The position numbers and the translations under genes were made by a program. A stretch of DNA of 57,506 nt from Ammonifex sp. (lineage in GTDB: Bacteria > Bacillota > Desulfotomaculia > Desulfotomaculales > DYER01), in contig DYER01000080.1 of NCBI GenBank assembly GCA_020725605.1, positions 1 through 57,506 of the forward strand, read 5' to 3'. This document shows positions 4,585-28,058 of this stretch, one piece after another. Position 1 is the stretch's first letter; each line of letters starts with the position of its first letter. The notes under the pieces are model-generated. The model saw only the letters and a list, made by a program, of their open reading frames with translations. It did no database searches and was not told the origin of the DNA.

Positions 4585-6690
4585 TTGCTGCTTCGAGACA
4601 TCATTACCAAGGAAATGTACTGGTTGCAACCGAACGACACCCTGGGGCGTGCCGTAAGCCTTTTCCGCGAATCAAAAATCGATACCTTGCCCGTGCTGGA
4701 CGAGGACTTGCGGCTGTACGGCGTTTTTACCCGTTCCTCCCTTTACGACGCCCTGCTGGCCGGTGCTTCCCTCCAGGATTCGATTGCCCCCCGCGTGATC
4801 CGGGACCCGGTGACGGTGCCTGCGGAGATCTCCTACGAGGAACTCACCCACATGGTGCGCGAGAGCCCCGTGGGGACGGCCCCTGTGGTGGACGCCGAAC
4901 GCCGGGTGGTCGGCATTCTGACCAAACAGGATATGGTCATGGCCGCGCTGCGCCAGGCGGACCTCCTGAACGCCCAGCTGAGGGCCACCCTCAACGCCAT
5001 GCACAACGGCCTCATCGCCGTGGACGGCAGCGAGCGCATTACCGTGGTCAACGCCGGGGCCGAAAGGATCTTCGGCATCTGCGCCGCGGACTGCGTGGGG
5101 CGGCCGCTCTCGTCCGTCTTCCCGGGACTGGATCTGGGGAGCGTGCTGGTGCACAAGACCCCCCGGGTCGGATTCAAGTACATCTTCGGTACCGCGGTGA
5201 CCGTGGTCAACGCGGCCCCCATCACCAACAGCGGCCTGGCCGAGGGCGCGGTGGCCGTATTTCAGGACCTCACCGAACTCGAACAGATCGCCAAAGAACT
5301 GGAGACCGTGCGGGCCCTGAACGAAACCCTCCACACCGTACTGAACATCATCTACGACGGTCTGGTGGTGGTGGACCAGCAGGGCCGCATTACACTCATC
5401 AATCGCCAGTTCCGCGAATTCCTGCAGAGGTCTCCGGAAGAACTCCTCGGCCGCCATGTCACCGAGGTCCTGCCCACCAGCCGACTCCACATCGTGGCCC
5501 GCACCGGTGTGCCGGAAATAAGCGACATTCAGAACATTATGGGCCGCCACTTTATCGTTACCCGCCTCCCCATCGTCAAGGACGGTCAGGTGGTGGGGGC
5601 TGTGGGCAAGGTGACCCTCCCCAAACTGGAGGAGATCCAGGAACTGGCCCGCCGCCTCAGCAGCCTGCGCCATAAGGTGGCCTATTACCAGGAGAAGACC
5701 GCCCGGCCCGGCATGGCGGCCTACACCTTCGACAGCATCATCACGCGCAGTCCGAAAATGACGGCTTTAAAAGAAGAGGCCCTGCGAGTGGCCGGCACCT
5801 TATCGACGGTACTCATTGAGGGCGAGAGCGGCACGGGCAAGGAGCTCTTCGCCCACGCCATCCACCTGGCCAGCCCGCGCCGGCACGGCCCGTTTATTAA
5901 GATCAACTGCGCCGCCATTCCCGAGGGCCTGCTGGAATCGGAGCTTTTCGGCTACGCCCCGGGGGCCTTCACCGGGGCCCACAAGAACGGCAAGCCGGGC
6001 CGCTTCGAGCTGGCCAACGGGGGCACCATTTTTCTGGACGAGGTCGGGGACATGCCCCTGGCGCTGCAGGCCAAGGTTTTGCGGGTGCTGCAGGACCGGG
6101 AGTTCGAGCGGGTGGGCAGCACCAAGACCGTGCGCGTGGACGTACGTATCGTCGCCGCCACCAACCGCAACCTGGAGGAGGCCGTGGCCCGGGGCGCTTT
6201 TCGGGAGGACCTGTACTGGCGCCTCAACGTCATCGCCCTCAAGATTCCGCCGCTGCGGGAAAGGCCCGAGGACATCGAGGTTCTCGTGGCCGCCTTCATC
6301 GAAAAGTTCAACCGTATCCTGAAGACCAACGTGCAGGGCATTACGGACCAGGCCCTGGAGATCCTTCGTATGCACTCCTGGCCCGGCAACGTGCGCGAAC
6401 TGGAAAACGCCATCGAGCGGGCCTGCAACTTCGCCTGGGAGGGGTACATCGAGCCCAGGCACCTCCCCCCTTACCTGACGGCGATGTCCCGAAGTAACGG
6501 CGCTGTGGCGCACGACGCCGCGGGGCCGCCGGCAGGACGCTACCGGGAGAAACTGGCCAGTGCCGAGCGGGACATCATCCTGTCGGCCCTGGCCGCGGCG
6601 GGCGGCAACAAGACCAAGGCCGCGCGCCTGCTGAACATCAGCCGCTCCCGCCTCTACGAAAAGATGAAAAGACTGCACATCCCCACGTAA
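4585..6690 (+). CDS. Sigma54-dependent transcriptional activator (CBS-PAS-PAS-AAA-Fis)
   Basis: This 701-aa enhancer-binding protein has two CBS repeats (about 1-120), two PAS domains (about 125-235 and 245-360), an AAA+ domain (about 390-620) and a Fis-type helix-turn-helix at the end (NKTKAARLLNISRSRLY). The Walker A GESGTGKE and the sigma54-contacting GAFTGA loop are intact, so it should be competent to open sigma54 promoters. CBS domains often bind adenylate ligands and PAS domains small ligands, so it may sense acyl-CoA or energy state (inference). The start is TTG at 4585 behind GAAGGGGGG. It lies between two transcripts that each carry a -24/-12 promoter, its likely targets. Confidence 0.93.
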   Translation: MLLRDIITKEMYWLQPNDTLGRAVSLFRESKIDTLPVLDEDLRLYGVFTRSSLYDALLAGASLQDSIAPRVIRDPVTVPAEISYEELTHMVRESPVGTAPVVDAERRVVGILTKQDMVMAALRQADLLNAQLRATLNAMHNGLIAVDGSERITVVNAGAERIFGICAADCVGRPLSSVFPGLDLGSVLVHKTPRVGFKYIFGTAVTVVNAAPITNSGLAEGAVAVFQDLTELEQIAKELETVRALNETLHTVLNIIYDGLVVVDQQGRITLINRQFREFLQRSPEELLGRHVTEVLPTSRLHIVARTGVPEISDIQNIMGRHFIVTRLPIVKDGQVVGAVGKVTLPKLEEIQELARRLSSLRHKVAYYQEKTARPGMAAYTFDSIITRSPKMTALKEEALRVAGTLSTVLIEGESGTGKELFAHAIHLASPRRHGPFIKINCAAIPEGLLESELFGYAPGAFTGAHKNGKPGRFELANGGTIFLDEVGDMPLALQAKVLRVLQDREFERVGSTKTVRVDVRIVAATNRNLEEAVARGAFREDLYWRLNVIALKIPPLRERPEDIEVLVAAFIEKFNRILKTNVQGITDQALEILRMHSWPGNVRELENAIERACNFAWEGYIEPRHLPPYLTAMSRSNGAVAHDAAGPPAGRYREKLASAERDIILSALAAAGGNKTKAARLLNISRSRLYEKMKRLHIPT

Positions 6691-7386: not shown

Positions 7387-8205
7387 ATGGGTATGCTGGA
7401 CGGCAAGGTGGCCGTCATCACGGGGTCCGGCCGGGGCATCGGCCGCGCCGCGGTCCTGATGATGGCCGCGGAGGGGGCCGCCGTGGTGGTCAACGATCTG
7501 GACGAGGCCCCGGCCCTGGGGGTGGTGGAAGAGATCAAGAAGGCCGGAGGGAGGGCCGTGGCCTGTGCGGGCAGCGTGACGGACCCCGCGATGCCGGACA
7601 GGCTGGTGCGCGCGGCAATCGACAACTTCGGGGCCCTGCACATCCTGGTGAACAACGCCGGGTACACCTGGGACGGCATGCTCCACAAGATGACGGACGA
7701 GCAGTGGCAGGCCATGCTGGACGTGCACGTGACCGCGGCCTTCCGGCTGATCCGGGCCGCGGCCCCCTACATGAGGGATGCGGCCAAGGCGGAAATGGAG
7801 GCCGGACAAAGGGTGACGCGCAAGATCGTCAACGTCATGTCCATTGCCGGCACCATGGGCAACGCGGGCCAGGCCAACTACTCGGCCGCCAAGGCGGCCC
7901 TGGGCGGCCTGACCAAGACGGTGGCCCGGGAGTGGGGCCGCTTCAACATCAACTGCAACGCCGTGGCCTTCGGGTTCATCGAGACCCGCCTGACCGACGA
8001 GAAGGAGAAGGGAGAGACCCTCATGGACGGGAAGGTGGCCATCGGGATACCCAGGGTGCAGCGGGAGGCCTTTATCAAGACCATTCCCCTGGGCCGGGCC
8101 GGTACCCCGGAGGAGGCCGCGCGGGGAATCCTGTTTCTGGTCTCGCCCTGGTCCGACTACGTCACGGGTCACATCCTGCACGTGGACGGCGGCCTGGACA
8201 TGTAA
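7387..8205 (+). CDS. SDR-family 3-hydroxyacyl-CoA dehydrogenase/reductase
   Basis: This 272-aa short-chain dehydrogenase has the NAD(P) motif TGSGRGIG, the NNAG motif, and the catalytic Ser (SIAG) and YSAAK Tyr/Lys. It ends in HVDGGLDM. An Asp at the end of beta-2 (VVNDLDE) suggests NAD preference. The ATG at 7387 follows AAGGAGG by 10 bases; the longer ORF-track start is a shadow extension. As first intact gene of the operon it would oxidise the 3-hydroxyacyl-CoA made by the MaoC hydratase. The family is broad, so the substrate is inferred from context. Confidence 0.88.
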   Translation: MGMLDGKVAVITGSGRGIGRAAVLMMAAEGAAVVVNDLDEAPALGVVEEIKKAGGRAVACAGSVTDPAMPDRLVRAAIDNFGALHILVNNAGYTWDGMLHKMTDEQWQAMLDVHVTAAFRLIRAAAPYMRDAAKAEMEAGQRVTRKIVNVMSIAGTMGNAGQANYSAAKAALGGLTKTVAREWGRFNINCNAVAFGFIETRLTDEKEKGETLMDGKVAIGIPRVQREAFIKTIPLGRAGTPEEAARGILFLVSPWSDYVTGHILHVDGGLDM

Positions 8206-8220: not shown

Positions 8221-9372
8221 TTGGCGCACTGGCTTTTCGGGGAAGAGCACGAGGCCCTGCGCAGGACGGTGCGGAGCTTCGTGCAAAAGGAACTGGTGCC
8301 GCACCTGGAGCGGTGGGAGGAATCCCAGGAAATCCCGCGGAGCGTTTTCCGCCGCTGCGGGGAACTGGGCTTCTTCGGCCTGAAGTTCCCGGAGGAGTAC
8401 GGCGGGCAGGGCGGCGACTACCTGGCCTCGGCCGTGTTTAAGGAGGAGGTGGCGCGCGGCGGCTCGGTGGGTCTCGCCGGGGCCCTGGGGGTACACTCCG
8501 GCGTGGCCCTGCCTCCCATCTTCAAGTTCGGCACCGGGGAGCAGAGGCGGCGTTTCCTGGTGCCGGGCATTGCCGGTGAAAAGGTGGGTGCCCTGGCGGT
8601 CACCGAGCCGAACGCCGGCTCCGACGTGGCCTCCATCCAGACCACGGCCCGGCGCGACGGAGACTCGTACGTTCTCAACGGGAGCAAGATCTTCATCACC
8701 AACGGCGTGTACGCCGACTTTGTGCTGGTGGCGGCCAAGACCGACCCCGCGGCGGGGCACCGGGGCATCAGCCTCTTCCTGGTGGAGCGCGGGACCCCCG
8801 GCTTCAGCGTGGGCCGCAAGCTGGCCAAGGCCGGCATGCTGTGCTCCGACACCGGGTACCTGATCTTCGAGGACTGCCGGGTGCCTGCGGAAAACCTGCT
8901 GGGGGAAGAGAACCGCGGCTTCTACCTCATCATGGACGGCTTCCAGTGGGAGCGCCTGATGATGGCCCTGGTCTCCGTGGGCGTGGCCGAGGTGGCCCTC
9001 GAGCAGGCGGTCGGTTACGTCCGCTCCCGAACCCAGTTCGGCCAGCCCGTGGCCAGGTTCCAGGCCGTGGCCCACCGCCTGGTGGACATGGCCACCCAGC
9101 TGGAAATGATCCGCGGCCTCACCTACCAGGCCCTCTGGCTGTTCGCGCAGGGGAGGCCCTGCCTGAAGGAGGTCTCCATGGCCAAGCTGGCCGCCACCGA
9201 GGCGGCCCACCGCATCGCGGGGGAGGCCCTGCAGTTGCACGGAGGCTACGGCTACATGAGGGAATATCCCATCGAGCGCATCTGGCGTGACACCCGGGTG
9301 GGAACCATCGTGGCCGGGACCTCCGAGATCATGCGGGAGATCGTGGCCCGGGAAATGGAACTGTACCGGTAG
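8221..9372 (+). CDS. Acyl-CoA dehydrogenase
   Basis: This 383-aa FAD flavoprotein would perform the first oxidation of the pathway, passing electrons to ETF. Seen are the N-terminal helical domain, AVTEPNAGSDVASI, the RTQFGQPVARFQ helix and the C-terminal LQLHGGYGYMREYPIERIWRD region. The usual catalytic Glu before GTSEI is Ala (IVAGTSEI), but a Glu is present in WERL. That alternative position supplies the base in isovaleryl-CoA and long-chain dehydrogenases, so a branched or long substrate is plausible. The TTG start at 8221 follows AAGGGGG and lies 15 bases after the SDR gene. Confidence 0.93.
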   Translation: MAHWLFGEEHEALRRTVRSFVQKELVPHLERWEESQEIPRSVFRRCGELGFFGLKFPEEYGGQGGDYLASAVFKEEVARGGSVGLAGALGVHSGVALPPIFKFGTGEQRRRFLVPGIAGEKVGALAVTEPNAGSDVASIQTTARRDGDSYVLNGSKIFITNGVYADFVLVAAKTDPAAGHRGISLFLVERGTPGFSVGRKLAKAGMLCSDTGYLIFEDCRVPAENLLGEENRGFYLIMDGFQWERLMMALVSVGVAEVALEQAVGYVRSRTQFGQPVARFQAVAHRLVDMATQLEMIRGLTYQALWLFAQGRPCLKEVSMAKLAATEAAHRIAGEALQLHGGYGYMREYPIERIWRDTRVGTIVAGTSEIMREIVAREMELYR

Positions 9373-9436
9373 TCGGGGCGCGTCCGGCACCGGTGACCAA
9401 AGGCCTACTGTATTTTCGAAAGGGGAGGTTTTGTCC

Positions 9437-9874
9437 GTGCTCGACAGGTATTACGATGAACTCGAAGTGGGCGCCACCTGGCGCTCCCGGGGGCGCACCA
9501 TCACCGAGGCCGACATCGTCATGTTTGCCGCCTTCAGCGGTGACTGGTATCCCCTCCACACCGACAGGGAGTGGGCGGCGAAGACCCAGTTCGGCCAGCG
9601 CATCGCCCACGGACTGCTGGTGCTTTCGGTTTGCTCGGGCCTCTGGAACATCGCCCCCGGCACCGTGGTCGCCTTTTACGGCATCGACAAGCTCCGGTTT
9701 ACGGCCCCCACCTTCATCGGCGATACCATCCACGTGGAACTGGAGGTCCTGGCCAAGGAGGACCGCGGCCCGGACCAGGGCGTGGTCACCTTCCAGATGG
9801 AAGCCAGGAACCAGCGCAACGAGACCGTGATGGTGGCCACCAAGAAGATCCTGATGCGCCGCAAACCCGCGTGA
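9437..9874 (+). CDS. MaoC-family (R)-specific enoyl-CoA hydratase
   Basis: This 145-aa hot-dog-fold protein carries the hydratase motif DWYPLHTD (Asp and His of the D-x-x-P-x-H-x-D signature), so it should add water to the enoyl-CoA made by the preceding dehydrogenase. GTG at 9437 was chosen because AGGGGAGG lies 8 bases upstream; TTG at 9431 would be only 2 bases from it. It lies 64 bases after the dehydrogenase in the same operon. Confidence 0.88.
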   Translation: MLDRYYDELEVGATWRSRGRTITEADIVMFAAFSGDWYPLHTDREWAAKTQFGQRIAHGLLVLSVCSGLWNIAPGTVVAFYGIDKLRFTAPTFIGDTIHVELEVLAKEDRGPDQGVVTFQMEARNQRNETVMVATKKILMRRKPA

Positions 9875-9953: not shown

Positions 9954-11372
9954 ATGCCGGTAATAGTATCCTGCGGTACTTACATTCCCTACGGCCGGTT
10001 ACCGCGGGAGACCATCGGCCGGTCCTGGAGCATACCTTCTGCTCCGGGCGAGCGGGCGGTGGCGGGTCCGGACGAAGACAGTGTCACCATGGCCGTGGAG
10101 GCCGGACTCAACGCTTTGGCGGACGCGGACCCGGCCGCGGTGGACGGCCTGTTCTTCGCCACCACCACGGCCCCCTACCGTCAGAAGCAGTGTGCCACGA
10201 CCGTCGCCGCGGCCCTGGACCTGCGGCCGGACATCCTGACGGCCGACTTCACGGACGGCCTGCGGGCGGGTCTTTGCGCCCTGCGGTCGGCCTGCGACGC
10301 CGTGGTCGCGGGCACCGCGCGGTCCGTGCTGGTGGTGGCCGCGGACTGCCGGCCCGCCGAGCCCGAAACCCAGGCCGAGCAGGTCTTCGGGGACGCCGCG
10401 GCCGCGGTGCTGGTGGCCCGCGAGGGCTCCGGCGCCGAGGTGCAGGGCAGCTTCTCCGTGGCCGGGGAATTCGTCGGCCCCTGGCGCACCGAAAGGGACC
10501 GGTTCCTTAAGAGCTTCGATGCGCGGTTCGAACTGAACTACGGGTACGTTAGAAACATGGTGGCCGCCGTGACGGGTCTTCTGGAGAGATACGGGGTAAA
10601 GCCGGAGGACCTCCACCGGGCCGTCCTGGCGGCCCCGGACCTGCGCGGCGGTATGGAGGTGGTCCGCCGGCTGCGTATCGACCCCAGGCGCACGGCCGTC
10701 CAGGACCCCCTGCTGGCCGGCGTGGGAGATACGGGCGCGGCCCAGCCCCTGCTTTTGTTCGCGGCCGCGTTGGAGGAAGCCCGGCCCGGAGAACGGATGT
10801 TGCTGGCCGGATGGGGGGAAGGGGGCGACGCCTTCCTGCTGGAGGTGACCGGAAAGGTCGGCTGCGGGCGCAGCGTTCAACACTACCTCCGAACCAGGAA
10901 AGTGCTGGCCAGCTACAATGCCTACCTCAAGGCCCGGGACCTCTTCCGCCGGGAGCCCTACGTGCCCAAATCGTCCCCGGTGATTTACTGGCGGGACCGG
11001 AGGGACCTGCTCAATTTTTACGGCCTGCGCTGCCGGAACTGCGGTACGGTGCAGTACCCGAGCGGCAGGGCCTGCTTCGCCTGCGGGGCCAAGGACCGGG
11101 GCGAGCCGGTGCGCCTGGCCAGGAGGGGTCGCGTGTTTACCTTCACCCTGGACCACCTGGTTTACGGGGACTACAGCGACATACCGGTGCCGCGCCTGGT
11201 GGTGGAGCTGGAGGGCGGCGGCCGGGTGTTCCTGGAGGGGACCGATTGCGATCCCGAGGAGATCCGCATCGACATGCCCGTGGAACTGGTGTTGCGCATC
11301 GTGCATCGGGGCGCCGGCTTCAACAACTACTACTGGAAGTGCCGCCCGGTACGGGAAGGGGGCGTGAGCTAG
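9954..11372 (+). CDS. HMG-CoA-synthase-fold protein fused to DUF35, catalytic residues lost
   Basis: The 472-aa protein joins a thiolase-fold HMG-CoA-synthase-like domain (1-330) to a DUF35 module: a zinc ribbon (C360, C363, C374, C377) and an OB fold to the end. By eye alignment with archaeal HMG-CoA synthase, the nucleophilic Cys position is Leu103 (ADFTDGLRAG where ADLEFACKAG is normal). The catalytic His is Ala226 and the Asn is Asp259 (GDTGAA for GNTYSG). Claisen chemistry is therefore unlikely. In archaea a DUF35 protein bridges thiolase and HMG-CoA synthase, and in BbsAB a DUF35 subunit activates a thiolase. Here it is most likely the partner of the adjoining thiolase. The ATG at 9954 follows GAGGAGGG. 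Confidence 0.85.
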   Translation: MPVIVSCGTYIPYGRLPRETIGRSWSIPSAPGERAVAGPDEDSVTMAVEAGLNALADADPAAVDGLFFATTTAPYRQKQCATTVAAALDLRPDILTADFTDGLRAGLCALRSACDAVVAGTARSVLVVAADCRPAEPETQAEQVFGDAAAAVLVAREGSGAEVQGSFSVAGEFVGPWRTERDRFLKSFDARFELNYGYVRNMVAAVTGLLERYGVKPEDLHRAVLAAPDLRGGMEVVRRLRIDPRRTAVQDPLLAGVGDTGAAQPLLLFAAALEEARPGERMLLAGWGEGGDAFLLEVTGKVGCGRSVQHYLRTRKVLASYNAYLKARDLFRREPYVPKSSPVIYWRDRRDLLNFYGLRCRNCGTVQYPSGRACFACGAKDRGEPVRLARRGRVFTFTLDHLVYGDYSDIPVPRLVVELEGGGRVFLEGTDCDPEEIRIDMPVELVLRIVHRGAGFNNYYWKCRPVREGGVS

Positions 11373-12539
11373 ATGAGCGTTAAGGACAAAGTGGCCGTCA
11401 TCGGTGTGGGCTACACCAGGTTCGGCGAGCACTGGGAGAAGGACGCCGAGGACCTTCTCATCGAGGCCGTCTACGAGGCCCTCGAGGACGCCGGCGTCAC
11501 CCTGCAGGACGTGCAGGCGGGATGGGTGGGCATCTTCTACGACTTCACGGGGTGCGGCGGCTCCACGGTCTCGGACATCCTGAAGTGGTTCGGCCGGCCC
11601 ATCACCAGGGTGGAGAACTACTGCGCCTCGGGTATGGACGCCTTCCGCAACGCGTGCTTTGCCGTGGCCTCCGGGGCCTACGACGTGGTCCTGGCCTGCG
11701 GGGTGGAGAAGATTCTGGACCAGGGCAGCCGGGGCCTGCCCGGTATCGGCGAGATCGGCCACCCGGTGTACGGCTCGGTTTCGGCGCCGGGCATGTTCGC
11801 CCTGGCCGCCACGCGGTGCTTCCACGTTCACGGCTGGACCAGGGAGGACCTGGCCCTGGTGGCCGTGAAAAACCACAGGCACGGCGCGGCCCACCCCAAG
11901 GCCCACTTCCGCCGCGAGATCACCGTGGAAGACGCGCTCCGCGCCCCCATGATCGCCTATCCTTTGGGCCGCTACGACTGCTGCGCCGTGTCGGACGGGG
12001 CCGCGGCCCTGATCCTGGCGCGGCCCGAGGTGGCCCGCACCTGCCGCCACAAGGACGACTACGTGCTGGTCAAGGCCAACGCCCTCTCGGTGCACACCAT
12101 GCTGCCCATGTACCAGCCGGGGTTCGACTACCTGGGCTGGCCGGCGACCCGGGACGCGGCCCGCATGGCCTACGCCGAGGCCGGCATCAGGAATCCGCGG
12201 GAAGAAATCAGCTTCGCCGAGGTGCACGACTGCTTCACCATCACGGAAATTCTGAACTACGAGGACCTGGGCTTCTGCGAGAAGGGCGAAGGGGTCAGGT
12301 TCCTGCGGGAAGGCATACCCTACATCGACGGCAAACTGCCGGTCAATCCCAGCGGCGGCCTGAAGTGCTTCGGGCACCCCATCGGCGCCACGGGGTGCCG
12401 CATGCTGGTGGAGGTGACCAAGCAGCTGCAGGGCCGGGCCGACGGCCTCCAGGTCAGGGACCCCCGTCTGGGACTGGCCCACAACCTCGGCGGGGCCGGA
12501 ACCACGGCCTCGGTCACCATCCTGGGCCGGCGCGACTGA
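11373..12539 (+). CDS. Thiolase (SCP2/archaeal type)
   Basis: This 388-aa thiolase would cleave the 3-ketoacyl-CoA with CoA. The nucleophile is C84 (NYCASGMDA), and EVHDCF and GHPIGATG supply the catalytic histidines. The second catalytic Cys of FadA-type thiolases is replaced by His in HNLGGAG, as in the SCP2 and archaeal branch that works with DUF35 partners. Its ATG directly follows the TAG of the DUF35 fusion gene, consistent with a stoichiometric complex. It is the last gene of the operon; a strong terminator follows 50 bases later. Confidence 0.92.
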   Translation: MSVKDKVAVIGVGYTRFGEHWEKDAEDLLIEAVYEALEDAGVTLQDVQAGWVGIFYDFTGCGGSTVSDILKWFGRPITRVENYCASGMDAFRNACFAVASGAYDVVLACGVEKILDQGSRGLPGIGEIGHPVYGSVSAPGMFALAATRCFHVHGWTREDLALVAVKNHRHGAAHPKAHFRREITVEDALRAPMIAYPLGRYDCCAVSDGAAALILARPEVARTCRHKDDYVLVKANALSVHTMLPMYQPGFDYLGWPATRDAARMAYAEAGIRNPREEISFAEVHDCFTITEILNYEDLGFCEKGEGVRFLREGIPYIDGKLPVNPSGGLKCFGHPIGATGCRMLVEVTKQLQGRADGLQVRDPRLGLAHNLGGAGTTASVTILGRRD

Positions 12540-13782: not shown

Positions 13783-14259
13783 TCACTTTCCGTCGCCGTG
13801 CCGGAATAGCCAGGCCCGCAGCTCCGAAAGCTGCTCGCCGTCGGGGTAGCGGTGCTCCCGCCGGAGTTCTTCCAGGTCGCGCAGGCGGGCCGTGTCGGCG
13901 GCAAAGTAAAGTACCAGATTGCGAATCAAGCACATCGTGGGCGGCGTGATGTAATGTTCGATGCCCTCCACCTGGTCCTTGACCCCCACGGGAACCTGCA
14001 GCAGGGTCAAGAAGTCGTGCAGGGTTCGGTCCCGCCAGACCAGAAACCGGCCGATGGCGGTTCCTTTAGGGGTCAGGGCGATGTTACGGTACTTTTCGTA
14101 GCACACCAGGCCGCGTTCGTTCAGCTTCCGGACCATGCGGGTCACCGAGGAGGGCTGTACCCCAAGGGCTTCCGCCAGGTCCACCACCCGCACGTAGCCC
14201 TTTGTTTCCAGGAGCCGGTAGATCATTTCCAGGTAGTCTTCCATGCTTTCCGTAAGCAC
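13783..14259 (-). CDS. DtxR/MntR-family metal-dependent repressor
   Basis: The 158-aa protein has an N-terminal winged helix (VRVVDLAEALGVQPSSVTRMVRKL) and a dimerisation domain containing VEGIEHYITPPT, as in MntR/IdeR proteins. It would bind DNA when loaded with Fe2+ or Mn2+. The GTG at 14259 matches the family N-terminus; ATG at 14244 is an alternative. It follows feoB by 18 bases on the same strand, so iron is its likely ligand and the feo operon its likely target. Confidence 0.9.
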   Translation of the reverse strand: MLTESMEDYLEMIYRLLETKGYVRVVDLAEALGVQPSSVTRMVRKLNERGLVCYEKYRNIALTPKGTAIGRFLVWRDRTLHDFLTLLQVPVGVKDQVEGIEHYITPPTMCLIRNLVLYFAADTARLRDLEELRREHRYPDGEQLSELRAWLFRHGDGK

Positions 14260-14277
14260 CTCCGGCTCCCCCCTTCG

Positions 14278-15657
14278 TTACGGGTTGAGGGCGCGCGCCA
14301 CCTGCGTCGTGGCGAAGCACACCGAGGTAGCCACGAGGGTGGGGATCGCAGCGGCCAGGACGGTCCACCGGCAACTTCCCGTCTCCTTCAGAATGGTCAG
14401 CAGCGTGGTCGCGCAGGGGAAGTGGAGCACCGAAAAGACCATCATGTTCAGGGCCGTAAGCCCGTTCCAGCCACGGGAGAGAAGCAGAGTTCGGAGGTCC
14501 CCCAAACCGATTTCCACCATGCTCCCGGTGGCCAGGTAACCCATCAGCAAAATGGGGAAGACGATTTCGTTGGCCGGAAGACCCAGGAGGAAGGCCGCCA
14601 CGATGAACCCGTCCAGCCCGATGGCCCGGCCCAAGGGGTCGAGCACACCGGCCAGATGCCCCAGCAGGCTGACTCCGCCCCAGTGGGTGTTGGCCACCAG
14701 CCAGACGGCGGCCCCTGCCGGGGCGGCCACCGTCACCGCCCGGCGCAGCACCACCAGGGTCCGGTCGCATGCGGCCCGCACGATGACGCGGCCCCATTGG
14801 GGCGGGCGGTAGGGCGGCAGCTCCAGGGCAAAGGAGGAGGGCAGGCCGCGCAGGCAACTCCTGGTCAGGACAAAGGAAACCGTCCAGGTGGCGGCCACGC
14901 CCAGGAGCACCACTCCCGCCACCACGGCTGCGGCCGCCGGTCCCGACCCCCCGGTCAGCAGGGACGCAAGCAACAGCAGGGTGGGAAAGCGCCCGTTACA
15001 GGGGGTAAACACGTTGGTCAGGGTGGCGACCAGCCGTTCGCGGGGGGATTCGATGATGCGACAGGCCACCACGCCGGCCGCGTTGCACCCCAGGCCCATG
15101 CCCATGGTCAGGGCCTGCTTGCCGTGGGCTCCGGCCGCCTTGAAAAACCGGTCCAGGTTGAAGGCCACCCGCGGCAGATAACCCAAGTCCTCCAACAGGG
15201 TAAACAGGGGAAAGAAGATGGCCATGGGGGGAAGCATGACCGCCACCACCCAGGTCACGGTGCGGTAGACTCCCTCCACCAGAATCCCGTGCACGACCGG
15301 TGGTACGGCATGGGCCGCGCAAAACGCCGTCAGACGCCCCTCAACGTCCAGAAAGACCGCGGCCAGGAGCTCCGAGGGGACGTTGGCCCCGGCCAGAGTG
15401 AGCCAGAAGACCATGCCCAGCAGTAACAGCATGATGGGGTAACCCAGCGCCCGGGAGGTGAAGATGTCGTCCAGCCTGGCGTCCCATTCGCCCGCCCTTT
15501 CGGACGGCGTTTGCACCACCCGGGCCGCCAGCATTTCGGCCCGCTTGTAAACGGCCGCCGCGATGCGGTCGTGGACGTCGCCGCCAAGCCGCTCGCCGCA
15601 CTTCCGCGCCCGCGACAGAACGAAATGGAGGTCAAGGGGTAACCCGATTTCGGACAT
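14278..15657 (-). CDS. feoB: FeoB membrane (permease) half, separate gene
   Basis: This 459-aa protein is the polytopic part of the ferrous iron transporter FeoB without the GTPase domain. About nine hydrophobic segments follow a soluble N-terminus. Gate motifs are recognisable: GMGLGCNAAGVVACRIIES and, in the second half, GLPANEIVFPILLMGYL. Its ATG lies inside the end of the upstream GTPase ORF in another frame and has its own AGGGGGA site 6-7 bases upstream. That argues for a true split gene with translational coupling rather than a sequencing frameshift. The two polypeptides should assemble in the membrane to form one iron transporter. Confidence 0.9.
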   Translation of the reverse strand: MSEIGLPLDLHFVLSRARKCGERLGGDVHDRIAAAVYKRAEMLAARVVQTPSERAGEWDARLDDIFTSRALGYPIMLLLLGMVFWLTLAGANVPSELLAAVFLDVEGRLTAFCAAHAVPPVVHGILVEGVYRTVTWVVAVMLPPMAIFFPLFTLLEDLGYLPRVAFNLDRFFKAAGAHGKQALTMGMGLGCNAAGVVACRIIESPRERLVATLTNVFTPCNGRFPTLLLLASLLTGGSGPAAAAVVAGVVLLGVAATWTVSFVLTRSCLRGLPSSFALELPPYRPPQWGRVIVRAACDRTLVVLRRAVTVAAPAGAAVWLVANTHWGGVSLLGHLAGVLDPLGRAIGLDGFIVAAFLLGLPANEIVFPILLMGYLATGSMVEIGLGDLRTLLLSRGWNGLTALNMMVFSVLHFPCATTLLTILKETGSCRWTVLAAAIPTLVATSVCFATTQVARALNP

Positions 15658-16375
15658 GCGTGTCCCCCTGCGTTTCCTTACCGTTACAGAAAGTGCGGAT
15701 TTTCGGGATGATACTTTCGTCCCCCGCGATCAGGCACAGGGCCACCCAGCGGGGGTTCAATCCCTCCCGGCTGAGGACGGCGAGGTCCGCGGCCAGTTCC
15801 GCGACGGCCGCCTCGAGTTCCGGATCGTAGCTCACCGGCCGGGGAGCGGGGTGGATCCTGCCCTCTATGACCCGGTGGAGGGTTTCCTTTAGCAGAGTCA
15901 GTCCTTCGCCCCGGCGCGCCGCCGCGGGTACCACGGGCACGCCGAGTTCGCGGGCCAGGGCAGGAACGTCGATACGGATACCCCTCCTGCGGGCCTCGTC
16001 CATGAGATTGAGGCAGGCGACGACCCGCGTGTTGACCTCCATTATTTGGAAGATCAGGTTGAGGTTGCGCTCCAGGCAGGTGGCGTCCACCACAACGACG
16101 GTGGCGTCCGGCCGGCCGAAGCAGAGGAAGTCACGGGTGATCCGCTCTTCCGGGGAATCCGAAAGCAGCGAGTAGGTCCCGGGCAAATCCACCAGGGTAA
16201 CGGTTTGACCGTTGTACCGGTACCATCCCCGGGCACAGGCCACCGTCTTCCCGGGCCAGTTGCCCGTGTGCTGCTTCAGTCCGGTGAGGGCGTTGAAGAG
16301 CGTGCTCTTTCCGGTGTTGGGGTTGCCCGCCAGGGCCACCACCGGGCGCGGCAGTTCCGTGCCGTCACGGGTCAT
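15632..16375 (-). CDS. feoB: FeoB GTPase (NFeoB) half, separate gene
   Basis: This 247-aa G protein domain drives ferrous iron uptake by the adjoining permease half. G motifs are GNPNTGKST (G1), DLPGTYSL (G3) and NLMD (G4), followed by the helical GDI-like region. The ATG at 16375 follows GGAGGT by about 8 bases; GTG at 16387 is an alternative inside feoA. It begins one base after the feoA stop and overlaps the permease ORF by 26 bases. Normal FeoB is one chain of about 650-750 residues. Confidence 0.92.
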   Translation of the reverse strand: MTRDGTELPRPVVALAGNPNTGKSTLFNALTGLKQHTGNWPGKTVACARGWYRYNGQTVTLVDLPGTYSLLSDSPEERITRDFLCFGRPDATVVVVDATCLERNLNLIFQIMEVNTRVVACLNLMDEARRRGIRIDVPALARELGVPVVPAAARRGEGLTLLKETLHRVIEGRIHPAPRPVSYDPELEAAVAELAADLAVLSREGLNPRWVALCLIAGDESIIPKIRTFCNGKETQGDTHVRNRVTP

Positions 16376-16376
16376 C

Positions 16377-16631
16377 TCAACGGTCACCTCCCGGCATGGA
16401 GATCGGCCTGACCAGCACGGTGCTGCCCTCCTCCCGTCTCAGGGCGACCAGGGCTCCGCGGATGCGAAAGGCGACCGGGTCCCCGGCGGCGCTTTTCCGG
16501 ACCGCCTTGACCCTGGTGCCCGGAACCAGGCCCAGGTCCAGAAGGCGCCGGCGGGTCGGGCCCGTGGCCCGCACGGCAACCACCTCGCCGGTGCACCCCA
16601 CCGGCAGCTCGTGCAGACCGAACAGGGTCAT
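16377..16631 (-). CDS. feoA: FeoA, SH3-like subunit of the ferrous iron transporter
   Basis: This 84-aa SH3-like protein contains the FeoA signatures GCTGEVVAV, RRLLDLGLVPGT and DPVAFRIRG. It binds and supports FeoB at the cytoplasmic face. The ATG at 16631 was chosen because AAGGAGC lies 8-9 bases upstream; the longer ORF-track start has no such site. First gene of feoA-feoB(G)-feoB(TM)-dtxR. Confidence 0.92.
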   Translation of the reverse strand: MTLFGLHELPVGCTGEVVAVRATGPTRRRLLDLGLVPGTRVKAVRKSAAGDPVAFRIRGALVALRREEGSTVLVRPISMPGGDR

Positions 16632-24915: not shown

Positions 24916-26026
24916 AGGACGCCTCCCATTGCCGTGCCAGGGTCAGGGCCTCGTCCCTCGTGGTCTCCGGCGCGGCCTCGAACACCGTCCAGGTCCCGTC
25001 CCGGTACCAGGCCAGGTAGGCGGGGCGGGAGTGGGTCTCCGCGGTGGGTTGTCCCGTTGTTCCGGCCCGCGGAGCTTTCCGGCCCGGCACGAAGAACCCG
25101 GGAGCGCCGTCCAGGGTAATTTCCTCGGCCCGGCCGGTGGGGTCCGGCACGGGCAGGGTGCGGGTCCAATCGTCGATCCCCTCAAGGGCCTTCTTCCAGT
25201 TGCCCGGAAGCACGGGCAGGCGCAGCAGGGCGTCGCGCACCGCCAGCACGTCTACCCCCTCCGGAACCTGAAGGGTGGGGGCGGCGCCCGCGAACGCGAC
25301 CAGGGTCCTGCCCGTGACCCGGTCCACGTAGCGGCCGACGGAGCCCCCGGGGATGGTGATGGTGAAGGTCCGGCCGTCGATTTCCCGCGGCAGCAGGGTG
25401 CCGCTCCCCAGGCCGGCCAGAAATTCGTTGATCCCGTCCGCGTCCGGGGTGATTTTGACCACCGCGCCGGACCGGTCGTGGGTGGACTGCAGGATGTAGC
25501 CTCCCACGGCCGCGGGCAGTTTGACCACGCGGTCCGGTGCCGGAAGGGGCTCGGTTTCCACCCGGCCGAAGTTTTCGACGTTCACGGGCCCGTAGCTTTC
25601 CAGGGCCTCGCGCAGCCTGGTCACATCCGCCGGGTCGAAGTGCAGTACCGCCACCCTTTCCACCCGGAAGACCCTGAGGAACTGGGTGGCCAGGCTCCGG
25701 GCCGGCGCGTAGCCCAACAGCAGGCCCAGGACCGCCGCGGCCGCGATCCACTTGTAGTAACGACGCACTGACGCCAGCACTCCTTTCTTTGGAAGATCGG
25801 TGACGCTCGGGGCGTGCCGGGCCGGCGGCCTGCCCACCGGCATATTGAGGCAGGCCCCGTGGTAGGGGCGCAAGATGCGGGTGACCTCTTCCCTTTCCCG
25901 GGATAGGCGGTTCAGGAGCCGGGAACAGCGGGAACAGGCCTTCAGGTGGGCCTCCAGCATCCGCCCCTCCCGCGGTGAGAGTTGTCCGTCGAGGTAGGCC
26001 AGAAGGTAACCCTCGTCACGGCACAC
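24905..26026 (-). CDS. Anti-sigma factor with zinc-finger (zf-HC2) domain
   Basis: The 373-aa protein begins with an anti-sigma zinc finger (residues 1-45, HLKACSRCSRLL giving H-x3-C-x2-C). One transmembrane segment follows at about 95-112 (WIAAAAVLGLLLGYAPA). A roughly 260-residue outer domain contains GYILQSTHDRSGAVVKI and looks like the sensing domains of firmicute anti-sigma proteins. It would hold the ECF sigma factor at the membrane until an envelope signal. GTG at 26026 overlaps the sigma stop by 11 bases and follows GGAGGCGGGG. Confidence 0.88.
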   Translation of the reverse strand: MCRDEGYLLAYLDGQLSPREGRMLEAHLKACSRCSRLLNRLSREREEVTRILRPYHGACLNMPVGRPPARHAPSVTDLPKKGVLASVRRYYKWIAAAAVLGLLLGYAPARSLATQFLRVFRVERVAVLHFDPADVTRLREALESYGPVNVENFGRVETEPLPAPDRVVKLPAAVGGYILQSTHDRSGAVVKITPDADGINEFLAGLGSGTLLPREIDGRTFTITIPGGSVGRYVDRVTGRTLVAFAGAAPTLQVPEGVDVLAVRDALLRLPVLPGNWKKALEGIDDWTRTLPVPDPTGRAEEITLDGAPGFFVPGRKAPRAGTTGQPTAETHSRPAYLAWYRDGTWTVFEAAPETTRDEALTLARQWEASYGR

Positions 26027-26549
26027 CGTCCCCGCCTCCTAACTCCGCACGGTAAAGCGCCAGAAACTTCCTCTGGGCCCGGGCCAGTACGGTGCCCACC
26101 GAGTTCGGGTTGATTCCCAGCGCGGACGCGATCTCCCGGTAGGTGAAACCGGTGTGCCGCAGCAGGAGGGCCAGGCGGTCACGCGGGGCGAGGGCCTCGA
26201 GGGCCCGGCGCACCAGGCGTACGGTTTCCCGGCGCAGCACCGTTTCCTCCAGCGGTACCACTTCCGGCCCCCGGGCCAGCCTTTCCTCCCGCCGCCACCG
26301 CCGGCGCTCGCCGCGCAAGGCGTTCAACGCCAGGCGGCTGCCCACCTGCAGGAGCCAGCCCTCGAGATTTTCCGGCCGCGGCGGGGGCTCGGTGTAGAGC
26401 TTGAGGAAGGTTTCCTGGGCAATTTCCTCGGCCGCGGCCCGCTGCCCCAGCAGGAAGGTCAGGTGGCGCACCACCCCGGGGTAGTACCTCCGGAAGGTTT
26501 CTTCGAAGGCCCGCTCCCCCTCGAGTTTTCCCGGCCTGCCTTCGGCCAC
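26016..26549 (-). CDS. ECF RNA polymerase sigma factor
   Basis: The 177-aa protein has sigma region 2 (FEETFRRYYPGVVRHLTFLL...AEEIAQETFLKLY) and region 4 (LAPRDRLALLLRHTGFTYREIASALGINPNSVGTVLARAQ), with no region 3, as in ECF (SigW/SigX-like) factors. It heads a four-gene operon with its anti-sigma factor and an ABC exporter. Nearby ECF-type promoters at 20045 and 28238, and a looser one before this gene, are its likely targets. It is written here from the ATG at 26549. Confidence 0.93.
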   Translation of the reverse strand: MAEGRPGKLEGERAFEETFRRYYPGVVRHLTFLLGQRAAAEEIAQETFLKLYTEPPPRPENLEGWLLQVGSRLALNALRGERRRWRREERLARGPEVVPLEETVLRRETVRLVRRALEALAPRDRLALLLRHTGFTYREIASALGINPNSVGTVLARAQRKFLALYRAELGGGDGVP

Positions 26550-26601
26550 CCGGTTCCCGGCCCCTTTCCACCTCTAGTAACACCATCGGGCGCCGTTTTG
26601 T

Positions 26602-26627
26602 GACGCGGCGGGCGGCCGCCCGGTTAT
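26602..26627 (-). promoter_or_regulatory. Possible ECF autoregulatory promoter of the sigma operon
   Basis: On the minus strand TATAAC is followed after 17 bases by CGTC. This resembles the two GTAAC-N16-CGTC elements but with one extra spacer base and a long GGCGGCCGCC palindrome in the spacer. It lies about 50 bases before the sigma start codon. Confidence 0.4.
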
Positions 26628-26797
26628 ATTTTTTTCTTCATTCCGCCCCTTGCCCCTGTTCGTGCGCCGGGCCGCCCCGGTGCCCGCTCCGCGCCGTAAG
26701 GCGCCCCCCGGTTTGCCGCTACCGCAGGCCCGTTGATTTCTACCAGGCGCATGGCAGGAATCTCCTCCGGAACGCAGAATTTAATAATTACTTTTAT

Positions 26798-26815
26798 CGT
26801 GATACTTTTTTCACG
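26798..26815 (+). promoter_or_regulatory. Inverted repeat before the sulfite reductase gene
   Basis: CGTGA and TCACG are separated by 8 bases in an AT-rich pocket (TTTAATAATTAC... upstream) 15 bases before the ATG. The geometry resembles a Crp/Fnr-family operator half-site pair. No regulator is encoded beside it. Confidence 0.35.
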
Positions 26816-26829
26816 GGGGTGCGCCAGAT

Positions 26830-27552
26830 ATGGGAGAAGGATACTTCAAGCAGAGAAACGGTCTTTACGTTCTTGATGTCATGGGCGCGTGCGGGCTGAT
26901 GACCGGCGAGCAGTTCCGGGGCCTGGCTGCGGCGGTGGCAGAGCTGGGGGTGCCGGCGGTGAAGCTGACCACGCGCCAGACGGTGGTGCTGCTGGTGCCG
27001 GAGGAGAAGGCCGCGGCCCTAAAGGCAGCCGTGGAGTCCCTGGGCCTGCGGGTGGCGCCTTACCACAACGTGGTGCGGCCCGTCATGGCCTGCCCGGGTA
27101 GCGCGGACCTGTGCCCGCGGGCCCTGGGCAACGCGCTGGCCCTGGGGCAGGCCCTCCAGGAGCGCTACACCGGGCAGGAGGTACCCAAGGACTTCAAGAT
27201 CTCGGTGGCCGGCTGTCCACGGGGCTGCACCGAACCCTACTGCGCGGACTTCGGGGTGGTGGCCGCGGGCGGTGAGACTTACAATGTGGCCATCGGGGGT
27301 TTCGGGGGCAGCAGCCGGCCCCGCCACGGTGAACTCATTGCCAGGCGCGTGCCCCGGGACGCGGTGTTCGCCATCCTGGACCACGTACTGGAGCGCTACC
27401 GGGCCCTGGCCCAGCCGCGGGAAAAACTGGGCCGGGCCGTCGAACGGTTGGGGCTGGAGGCCTTTTTGCCGCCGGCGCAACTCCTGCGGCCCGCGGAAGA
27501 GCCCGACCCCGTCTTGCTGGAACTGAAGGCCTTCCTCGGTGCGCCGGAGTGA
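26830..27552 (+). CDS. Small siroheme/4Fe-4S sulfite (nitrite) reductase-like protein
   Basis: The 240-aa protein is a single nitrite/sulfite reductase unit: an N-terminal ferredoxin-like half domain (1-75, VKLTTRQTVVLLVPEE) and a 4Fe-4S/siroheme domain. Cluster cysteines are C88 and C95 (CPGSADLC, six residues between rather than the usual five) and C129 and C133 (CPRGC). An extra Cys is C138. The size matches the low-molecular-weight assimilatory sulfite reductases of anaerobes, about half of a SirA/NirA chain. It probably reduces sulfite or a similar oxyanion. The ATG at 26830 follows GGGGGTG; the Cys-rich gene downstream may be a partner. Confidence 0.82.
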   Translation: MGEGYFKQRNGLYVLDVMGACGLMTGEQFRGLAAAVAELGVPAVKLTTRQTVVLLVPEEKAAALKAAVESLGLRVAPYHNVVRPVMACPGSADLCPRALGNALALGQALQERYTGQEVPKDFKISVAGCPRGCTEPYCADFGVVAAGGETYNVAIGGFGGSSRPRHGELIARRVPRDAVFAILDHVLERYRALAQPREKLGRAVERLGLEAFLPPAQLLRPAEEPDPVLLELKAFLGAPE

Positions 27553-27587
27553 AACTCGCGCATCCGCCAAATCCGGGAGGGGAAAAA

Positions 27588-28058
27588 ATGACGCCGACGC
27601 GCAAGGCCGTCGACGTGAATCTGGGGGCCCTGGCGGAGGCCCTGGAAAAGAAGATCTGTGCTGCTTGCGATTACCTGGATGCGGCCGAGTGCCGCCCCGA
27701 GAGGTGCATGGTGGCCTTCGCCCGCAAGGTCCTGGCTTTCGTGCTGCCCAAGGGCGTTCTGGACGTGCCGGGGGCCTCGCAACTGATTCCCGCCACGGAC
27801 TTCAAGGTTTACGTGCCCGAAGACGTGGCCGCCGCCCTGGCCGAGACCCTGCGGCAGTGCCGGGAGTGCCGGGACAACCACTCCCCGGACTGCGTGATAG
27901 CCCTGACCCGCGCCTGCCTCGAAAACGCGCTCACCGGCCGGCGCATCGATTACCCGGGCAGCGTGTTCCTCTACCTGGCGCGCCTGCGGGAGCAGGACCC
28001 CCGCCTGGCCGAACTGGTGGCGCGGGAACTGCGACACGGAACGCGACCGGAGGACTGA
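27588..28058 (+). CDS. Cysteine-rich protein of unknown function
   Basis: The 156-aa protein has two cysteine groups. Near the N-terminus is ICAACDYLDAAECRPERC, and near the middle CRECRDNHSPDC. Together they could bind zinc or an iron-sulfur cluster. No membrane segment or signal sequence is seen, and I do not recognise a family. ATG at 27588 follows GGGAGGGG by 6 bases. It lies 35 bases after the siroheme protein gene and is probably co-transcribed, so it may serve that enzyme (inference). Confidence 0.65.
   Translation: MTPTRKAVDVNLGALAEALEKKICAACDYLDAAECRPERCMVAFARKVLAFVLPKGVLDVPGASQLIPATDFKVYVPEDVAAALAETLRQCRECRDNHSPDCVIALTRACLENALTGRRIDYPGSVFLYLARLREQDPRLAELVARELRHGTRPED

Follow-up and report, generated by a model that had tools for sequence, protein, structure and literature searches.

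The window, that is, the whole stretch of 57,506 nucleotides of Ammonifex sp. DNA that was analysed, contains an operon in which genes for an SDR, an acyl-CoA dehydrogenase and a MaoC-type hydratase are followed by the two genes considered here (Table 1). One encodes a single protein in which a domain resembling HMG-CoA synthase (HMGCS) is fused to DUF35, and the other encodes an SCP2-type thiolase. In this order the five genes amount to a full beta-oxidation set. The ORF of the fusion starts with the ATG at 9954, ahead of which lies a ribosome site (GAGGAGGG), and stops at 11370-11372. The thiolase ATG begins at 11373, the first base after this stop, and the catalytic residues of the thiolase are present, so the preliminary description was right to place an intact thiolase directly against the fusion. 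Downstream of the operon, at 13783-16387 on the minus strand, are genes for a DtxR-type regulator and FeoB-like iron transport.

Table 1 Features of the operon and its surroundings, with window positions.
Feature	Position	Strand	Basis
CBS/PAS sigma-54-type activator, upstream	4585..6690	+	domain matches
SDR, probable 3-hydroxyacyl-CoA dehydrogenase, same operon	7387..8205	+	ORF, Pfam, NCBIfam
Acyl-CoA dehydrogenase, same operon	8221..9372	+	ORF, Pfam
MaoC-type enoyl-CoA hydratase, same operon	9431..9874	+	ORF, Pfam
Fusion protein, HMGCS-like domain + DUF35 (zinc ribbon, OB fold), 472 aa	9954..11372	+	ORF, Pfam, NCBIfam, fold model
HMGCS/KAS III-like domain, almost certainly dead catalytically, residues 1-330	9954..10943	+	Pfam, alignment, Foldseek
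T71, place of HMGCS Glu82	10164..10166	+	alignment
L103, place of nucleophile Cys114 of HMGCS	10260..10262	+	alignment
A226, place of catalytic His of HMGCS	10629..10631	+	alignment
D259, place of catalytic Asn of HMGCS	10728..10730	+	alignment
DUF35 zinc ribbon, intact Cys360/363/374/377	11016..11093	+	Pfam, alignment
DUF35 OB fold (OB_ChsH2_C)	11109..11294	+	Pfam
SCP2-type thiolase, 388 aa, catalytic Cys84, His285, His335 present	11373..12539	+	ORF, Pfam, NCBIfam PRK06157, alignment

A similar setting was found at five related Bacillota loci, where acyl-CoA dehydrogenase, SDR and MaoC-type genes recur among the neighbours; four neighbouring ORFs match a sigma-54 activator and four match CBS models, as in the window. 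When the window was searched for sigma-54 promoters, 5 matches were obtained, fewer than expected by chance, and 0 of these were upstream of the operon. At other loci the fusion-thiolase pair has dehydrogenases, hydratases, acyl-CoA ligases and CoA transferases as its neighbours. The genome from which the window comes has more SCP2-type thiolases on contigs C54, C97, C100 and C107, in tandem on C97 and C107, which suggests a broad capacity for degrading acyl-CoAs.

The domains of the fusion were assigned by profile matches and by its predicted fold. Pfam returned ACP_syn_III and ACP_syn_III_C, the latter slightly below the cut-off, followed by zf-ChsH2 (22.1 against a cut-off of 23.2, again slightly below) and OB_ChsH2_C (44.7 bits, above the cut-off). 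The make-up of DUF35, a zinc ribbon with four Cys and then an OB fold, is present with all four zinc Cys intact, as the preliminary description had held. The top NCBIfam model was that of archaeal HMGCS, PRK04262, with a score of 189 bits that falls below the cut-off of 244. An AlphaFold model of the fusion had a pLDDT of 91.5 and a pTM of 0.92, and the best PDB matches of this predicted fold in Foldseek were PhlA, archaeal HMGCS (6esq_I) and MucA. A joined prediction of fusion and thiolase, for which the stop codon was treated as an amino acid to give a single chain, had a pTM of 0.62, a value that gives no firm indication of an interface; treating the stop in this way is a modelling device, and no translational read-through is claimed.

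Residues at the former active site

The catalytic residues were mapped with M. thermolithotrophicus HMGCS (6esq_I) as the reference. In this alignment Cys114, His, Asn and Glu82 of HMGCS correspond to L103, A226, D259 and T71 of the fusion, and the positions given earlier for the lost Cys, His and Asn proved exact. Within the phylum, 300 genomes were searched and yielded ten more fused proteins in addition to that of the window. In all 11 the Cys column is Leu and the Glu column Thr, and His occurs at the His column in 0 of 11. A scan of public species genomes returned at least 428 stretches coding for relatives, and the best 80 of these (79 loci) were kept. Among the best 80 of 428 are members of Chloroflexota, Deltaproteobacteria, Nitrospinota, Actinomycetota, Bacillota, Jordarchaeia, Lokiarchaeota and Bathyarchaeota.

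The loss is family-wide. Across 100 fused proteins of full length, Leu fills the Cys column in 85, Thr in 6, Ile in 4, Val in 3 and Pro in 1, with one gap and 0 Cys. The His column contains a single His and is occupied by Tyr in 69% of the proteins, with Ala in the window, and the Asn column is mixed (Asn in 55, Asp in 13, His in 11, and others). By comparison, all four of the Glu, Cys, His and Asn residues are retained in 31 of 31 active archaeal HMGCS controls. We looked within the HMGCS-like domain for another Cys/His set conserved across the fused family and found none, nor was a Cys/His/Asn triad conserved elsewhere in it, so the survey of homologues bears out the loss reported for the window. 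The zinc Cys of DUF35, on the other hand, are present at all four positions in 100 of 100 fused proteins. In a fused relative from Sphingomonas paeninsulae (L202, 8001-9446) they are apparently gone, so some members may do without zinc.

The old active site has a pattern of its own. Thr71 is found in 97-98% of the fused proteins, a count biased by the peptide patterns of the scan, which cover the Thr71 position while the Cys, His and Asn positions lie outside them, and Leu103 in 85%. Arg133 and Asp147 are conserved and family-specific, and the family-specific conserved polar positions are Thr71, Glu77, Arg133 and Asp147. Since Thr71, Leu103, Arg133 and Asp147 are conserved, the site is not simply eroding and probably retains some job.

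The adjoining thiolase and the origin of the fusion

The thiolase scores 520.6 bits on PRK06157, above the NCBIfam cut-off of 403. Nearly all fused genes on long enough contigs have a thiolase next downstream, mostly across a gap of less than 100 bp, and nearly all of these thiolases keep their catalytic residues. A few loci are exceptions, among them two without a thiolase match after the fusion, though the sequence extends on (L084 and L114), and one with the thiolase upstream of the fused gene (L082). In the 300-genome phylum sample, which includes the window's own genome, the 11 best thiolases all adjoin a fusion, and most of the next-best adjoin an unfused dead HMGCS and DUF35. Several fusion-thiolase pairs occur on one contig at eight loci, mostly of Chloroflexota (L056, L061, L064, L065, L078, L083, L089 and L095), which suggests expansion for different substrates.

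The two partners differ in how well they are conserved. For 72 adjacent fused pairs, the HMGCS-like domain had a mean pairwise identity of 0.467 and the thiolase one of 0.538, and the thiolase was the more similar of the two in 91% of comparisons. For 30 active archaeal pairs, taken mainly from one archaeal phylum, the values were 0.618 for HMGCS and 0.507 for the thiolase, and the thiolase had the higher identity in 4% of comparisons; the comparison is one of within-pair ratios and not a dated rate. Against its closest thiolase relatives, the pair of the window shows identities of ~0.45 for the HMGCS-like domain and ~0.70 for the thiolase. Because conservation is inverted with respect to the active pairs, it provides independent evidence for the loss of catalysis. 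From this and the family-wide residue loss, we infer that HMGCS catalysis has been lost, a conclusion we regard as close to certain. The divergence of the HMGCS-like domain, DUF35 and thiolase is correlated among all three, with Mantel r of 0.68 for HMGCS-thiolase and 0.78 for DUF35-thiolase in the 72 fused pairs (0 of 2000 permutations), values that are uncorrected for shared species phylogeny.

On a tree of HMGCS domains with active HMGCS as the outgroup, the fused proteins form one group (86/86, support 0.815). Its sister, with a support of 1.0, consists of unfused dead HMGCS genes of Bacillota, and unfused dead Jordarchaeia genes come next; the position of PhlA and MucA is weakly supported. 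Since the sister of the fused group is itself dead and unfused, loss of the catalytic residues probably preceded the fusion event. The window's own genome has such an unfused set on contig C20 at about 25343-27966 (L035), where acyl-CoA dehydrogenase genes flank those for a thiolase, a dead HMGCS (Ala/Pro/Asp) and DUF35, and a search of this genome (~85% complete) for an active HMGCS found none. At two Jordarchaeia loci (L188, 5331-7897; L191, 1105-3692), unfused genes encode a dead HMGCS, then DUF35, then a thiolase, the order seen in the fused form; an active HMGCS and a fused gene are present in these genomes as well. This arrangement is possibly an intermediate state.

Possible roles of the HMGCS-like domain

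We propose, with a probability of about 0.77, that the fusion serves, without catalysis of its own, as the scaffold in a degradative thiolase complex encoded in a beta-oxidation operon, where we infer both the complex and the thiolytic direction. The HMGCS-like domain would have kept its fold and given up Claisen chemistry. Its covalently attached DUF35 would form the bridge to the product of the adjoining thiolase gene, by analogy with the separate DUF35 subunits that bridge in the archaeal complex and in PhlACB. Thiolytic cleavage of the 3-oxoacyl-CoA would fall to the thiolase only, through Cys84, His285 and His335, and the pair would complete one round of beta-oxidation begun by the three enzymes encoded upstream, the SDR, the acyl-CoA dehydrogenase and the hydratase. 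The dead domain would stabilise the complex and may still shape a shared CoA/acyl pocket. It is likely that fusion and thiolase form a physical complex, given their near-constant adjacency, their parallel divergence and the solved complexes of the same three parts, all of which favour the earlier suggestion that the synthase fold serves the thiolase. Counting against a scaffold are the conserved residues at the old active site, and the many SCP2-type thiolases that function without an HMGCS subunit. If instead the thiolase acted alone, with the fusion an independent acyl-CoA carrier that is merely co-transcribed, the full set of catalytic residues in the thiolase would be accounted for, and such a carrier role has been proposed for DUF35 proteins (PMC2954200). 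However, the adjacency and correlated divergence of the pair and the solved complexes of homologous parts make this improbable.

The other alternatives concern the HMGCS-like domain itself. That it could work as an HMG-CoA synthase, or as some other Claisen enzyme, through catalytic residues located elsewhere might be thought from its best NCBIfam model, archaeal HMGCS, but this score is under the curated cut-off, Cys is found in 0 of 100 proteins with no alternative Cys/His set, and the setting is catabolic; we consider the idea extremely unlikely, and a functional HMGCS was ruled out by the residues, the sub-cut-off PRK04262 score and the active controls. A newly gained catalytic activity, using such residues as Thr71, Arg133 and the Tyr of the His column, would explain why Thr71 and Leu103 are highly conserved and Arg133 and Asp147 family-specific. 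It is very unlikely all the same, as no new Cys/His pair is conserved family-wide, Tyr occupies the His position in only 69% of the proteins and is Ala in the window, and overall conservation is below that of the thiolase. A better though still tentative case can be made for a CoA- or acyl-binding half-site, which would perform no bond chemistry and would hold the CoA arm or a long acyl tail, thereby setting thiolase specificity and channelling. CoA is found at the interface of all three proteins in the archaeal complex, and in PhlACB a cavity lined by PhlA runs on into the active site of PhlC (PMC6392133); the fused family also has its own conserved polar Thr71, Glu77, Arg133 and Asp147. Against this, PpATase is reported to be without the CoA-binding residues of the archaeal complex (PMC6392133), and the HMGCS-like domain is more variable than the thiolase, with drift at the His and Asn positions. 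A half-site would refine the scaffold rather than replace it, and the probabilities of the two overlap. Somewhat more doubtful is a broader proposal, in which a large fused pseudo-synthase/DUF35 family of single origin, spread over bacteria and archaea, would be the obligate partner of a clade of degradative thiolases, its pocket remodelled as a chamber that confers specificity for, or channels, bulky or polycyclic acyl-CoAs, for instance those with steroid rings. If true, a dead enzyme would tune a live one.

The scaffold reading has practical consequences. Annotation pipelines label such proteins HMG-CoA synthase, 3-oxoacyl-ACP synthase or OB-fold protein, and these labels therefore place false biosynthetic steps in catabolic pathways. 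Where a thiolase scaffold is recognised, fusion and thiolase are best expressed together. The series from active to dead unfused to dead fused forms offers natural material on how an enzyme becomes a structural partner.

Comparison with known systems

A fused relative occurs in a probable oestrogen-degradation cluster. In Novosphingobium ES2-1, WP_193829060.1 is a fused dead HMGCS-DUF35 protein (Leu/Ser/Phe at the Cys/His/Asn columns) that adjoins an intact thiolase, and the pair lies in a cluster with the gene order of the edc oestrogen cluster of N. tardaugens. In the latter the authors left an 'HMG-CoA synthase', EGO55_13555, unassigned and proposed another activity for it (PMC7793797). The shared gene order and the annotation suggest that EGO55_13555 belongs to the fused dead family. 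Its substrate differs in being steroid-derived. A scaffold for the thiolase would offer an explanation for this unplaced gene in oestrogen degradation.

The preliminary description had drawn parallels with BbsAB and the archaeal complex. The benzoylsuccinyl-CoA thiolase BbsAB (7pxp) is alike in being catabolic and in pairing a DUF35 subunit with an SCP2-type thiolase, but it has no HMGCS domain. Membership in BbsAB was rejected, with NCBIfam scores far below the cut-offs (24 against 250 bits for BbsA and 213 against 750 for BbsB). The archaeal acetoacetyl-CoA thiolase/DUF35/HMGCS complex (6esq, 6et9) has the same three parts, and its HMGCS is the second-best fold match of the fusion (TM 0.90 over the target, rmsd 1.6), which upholds that comparison. 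It differs in having an active HMGCS with Glu, Cys, His and Asn kept, three genes, and a role in mevalonate synthesis. MucABC of Streptococcus macacae (9vbo, 9vbt) is a multi-component acyltransferase whose dead HMGCS-like subunit, MucA, has Glu/Gln/Tyr at the Cys/His/Asn places; its chains are separate and it is farther off on the tree.

The closest precedent, which the preliminary description missed along with the commonness of the fusion, is PhlACB (PpATase), a Friedel-Crafts acylase of Pseudomonas (5m3k, 5mg5, 9skh) with the same three parts: PhlA, the DUF35 protein PhlB and the catalytic thiolase-like PhlC. PhlA is both the top sequence match and the top fold match of the fusion, although the domain identity is only about 26%. 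It is a dead HMGCS-like protein with Gly/Gln/Asp/Cys at the Cys/His/Asn/Glu places, and was named inactive already in 2010 (PMC2954200). The chemistry is carried out by PhlC only, PhlA being without the key Cys and Glu, and yet all three subunits are needed, and separately made subunits are inactive after mixing (PMC6392133). PhlACB transfers acyl groups to phenols independently of CoA, in antibiotic synthesis, whereas the genes of the window stand in a beta-oxidation context, and its parts are three separate genes, whereas the PhlA- and PhlB-like parts are here in one protein. Fusions of DUF35 to members of the thiolase superfamily in general were noted in 2010 (PMC2954200). No description of a fused, dead and catabolic family was found in the literature searched, which covered few subscription papers. 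In the window, the thiolase, DUF35 and HMGCS-like parts are encoded together, with folds homologous to those of PhlACB and the archaeal complex. A dead HMGCS subunit was thus already known from PhlA; what is new is the fused form, how widely it occurs and the degradative context in which it is found.
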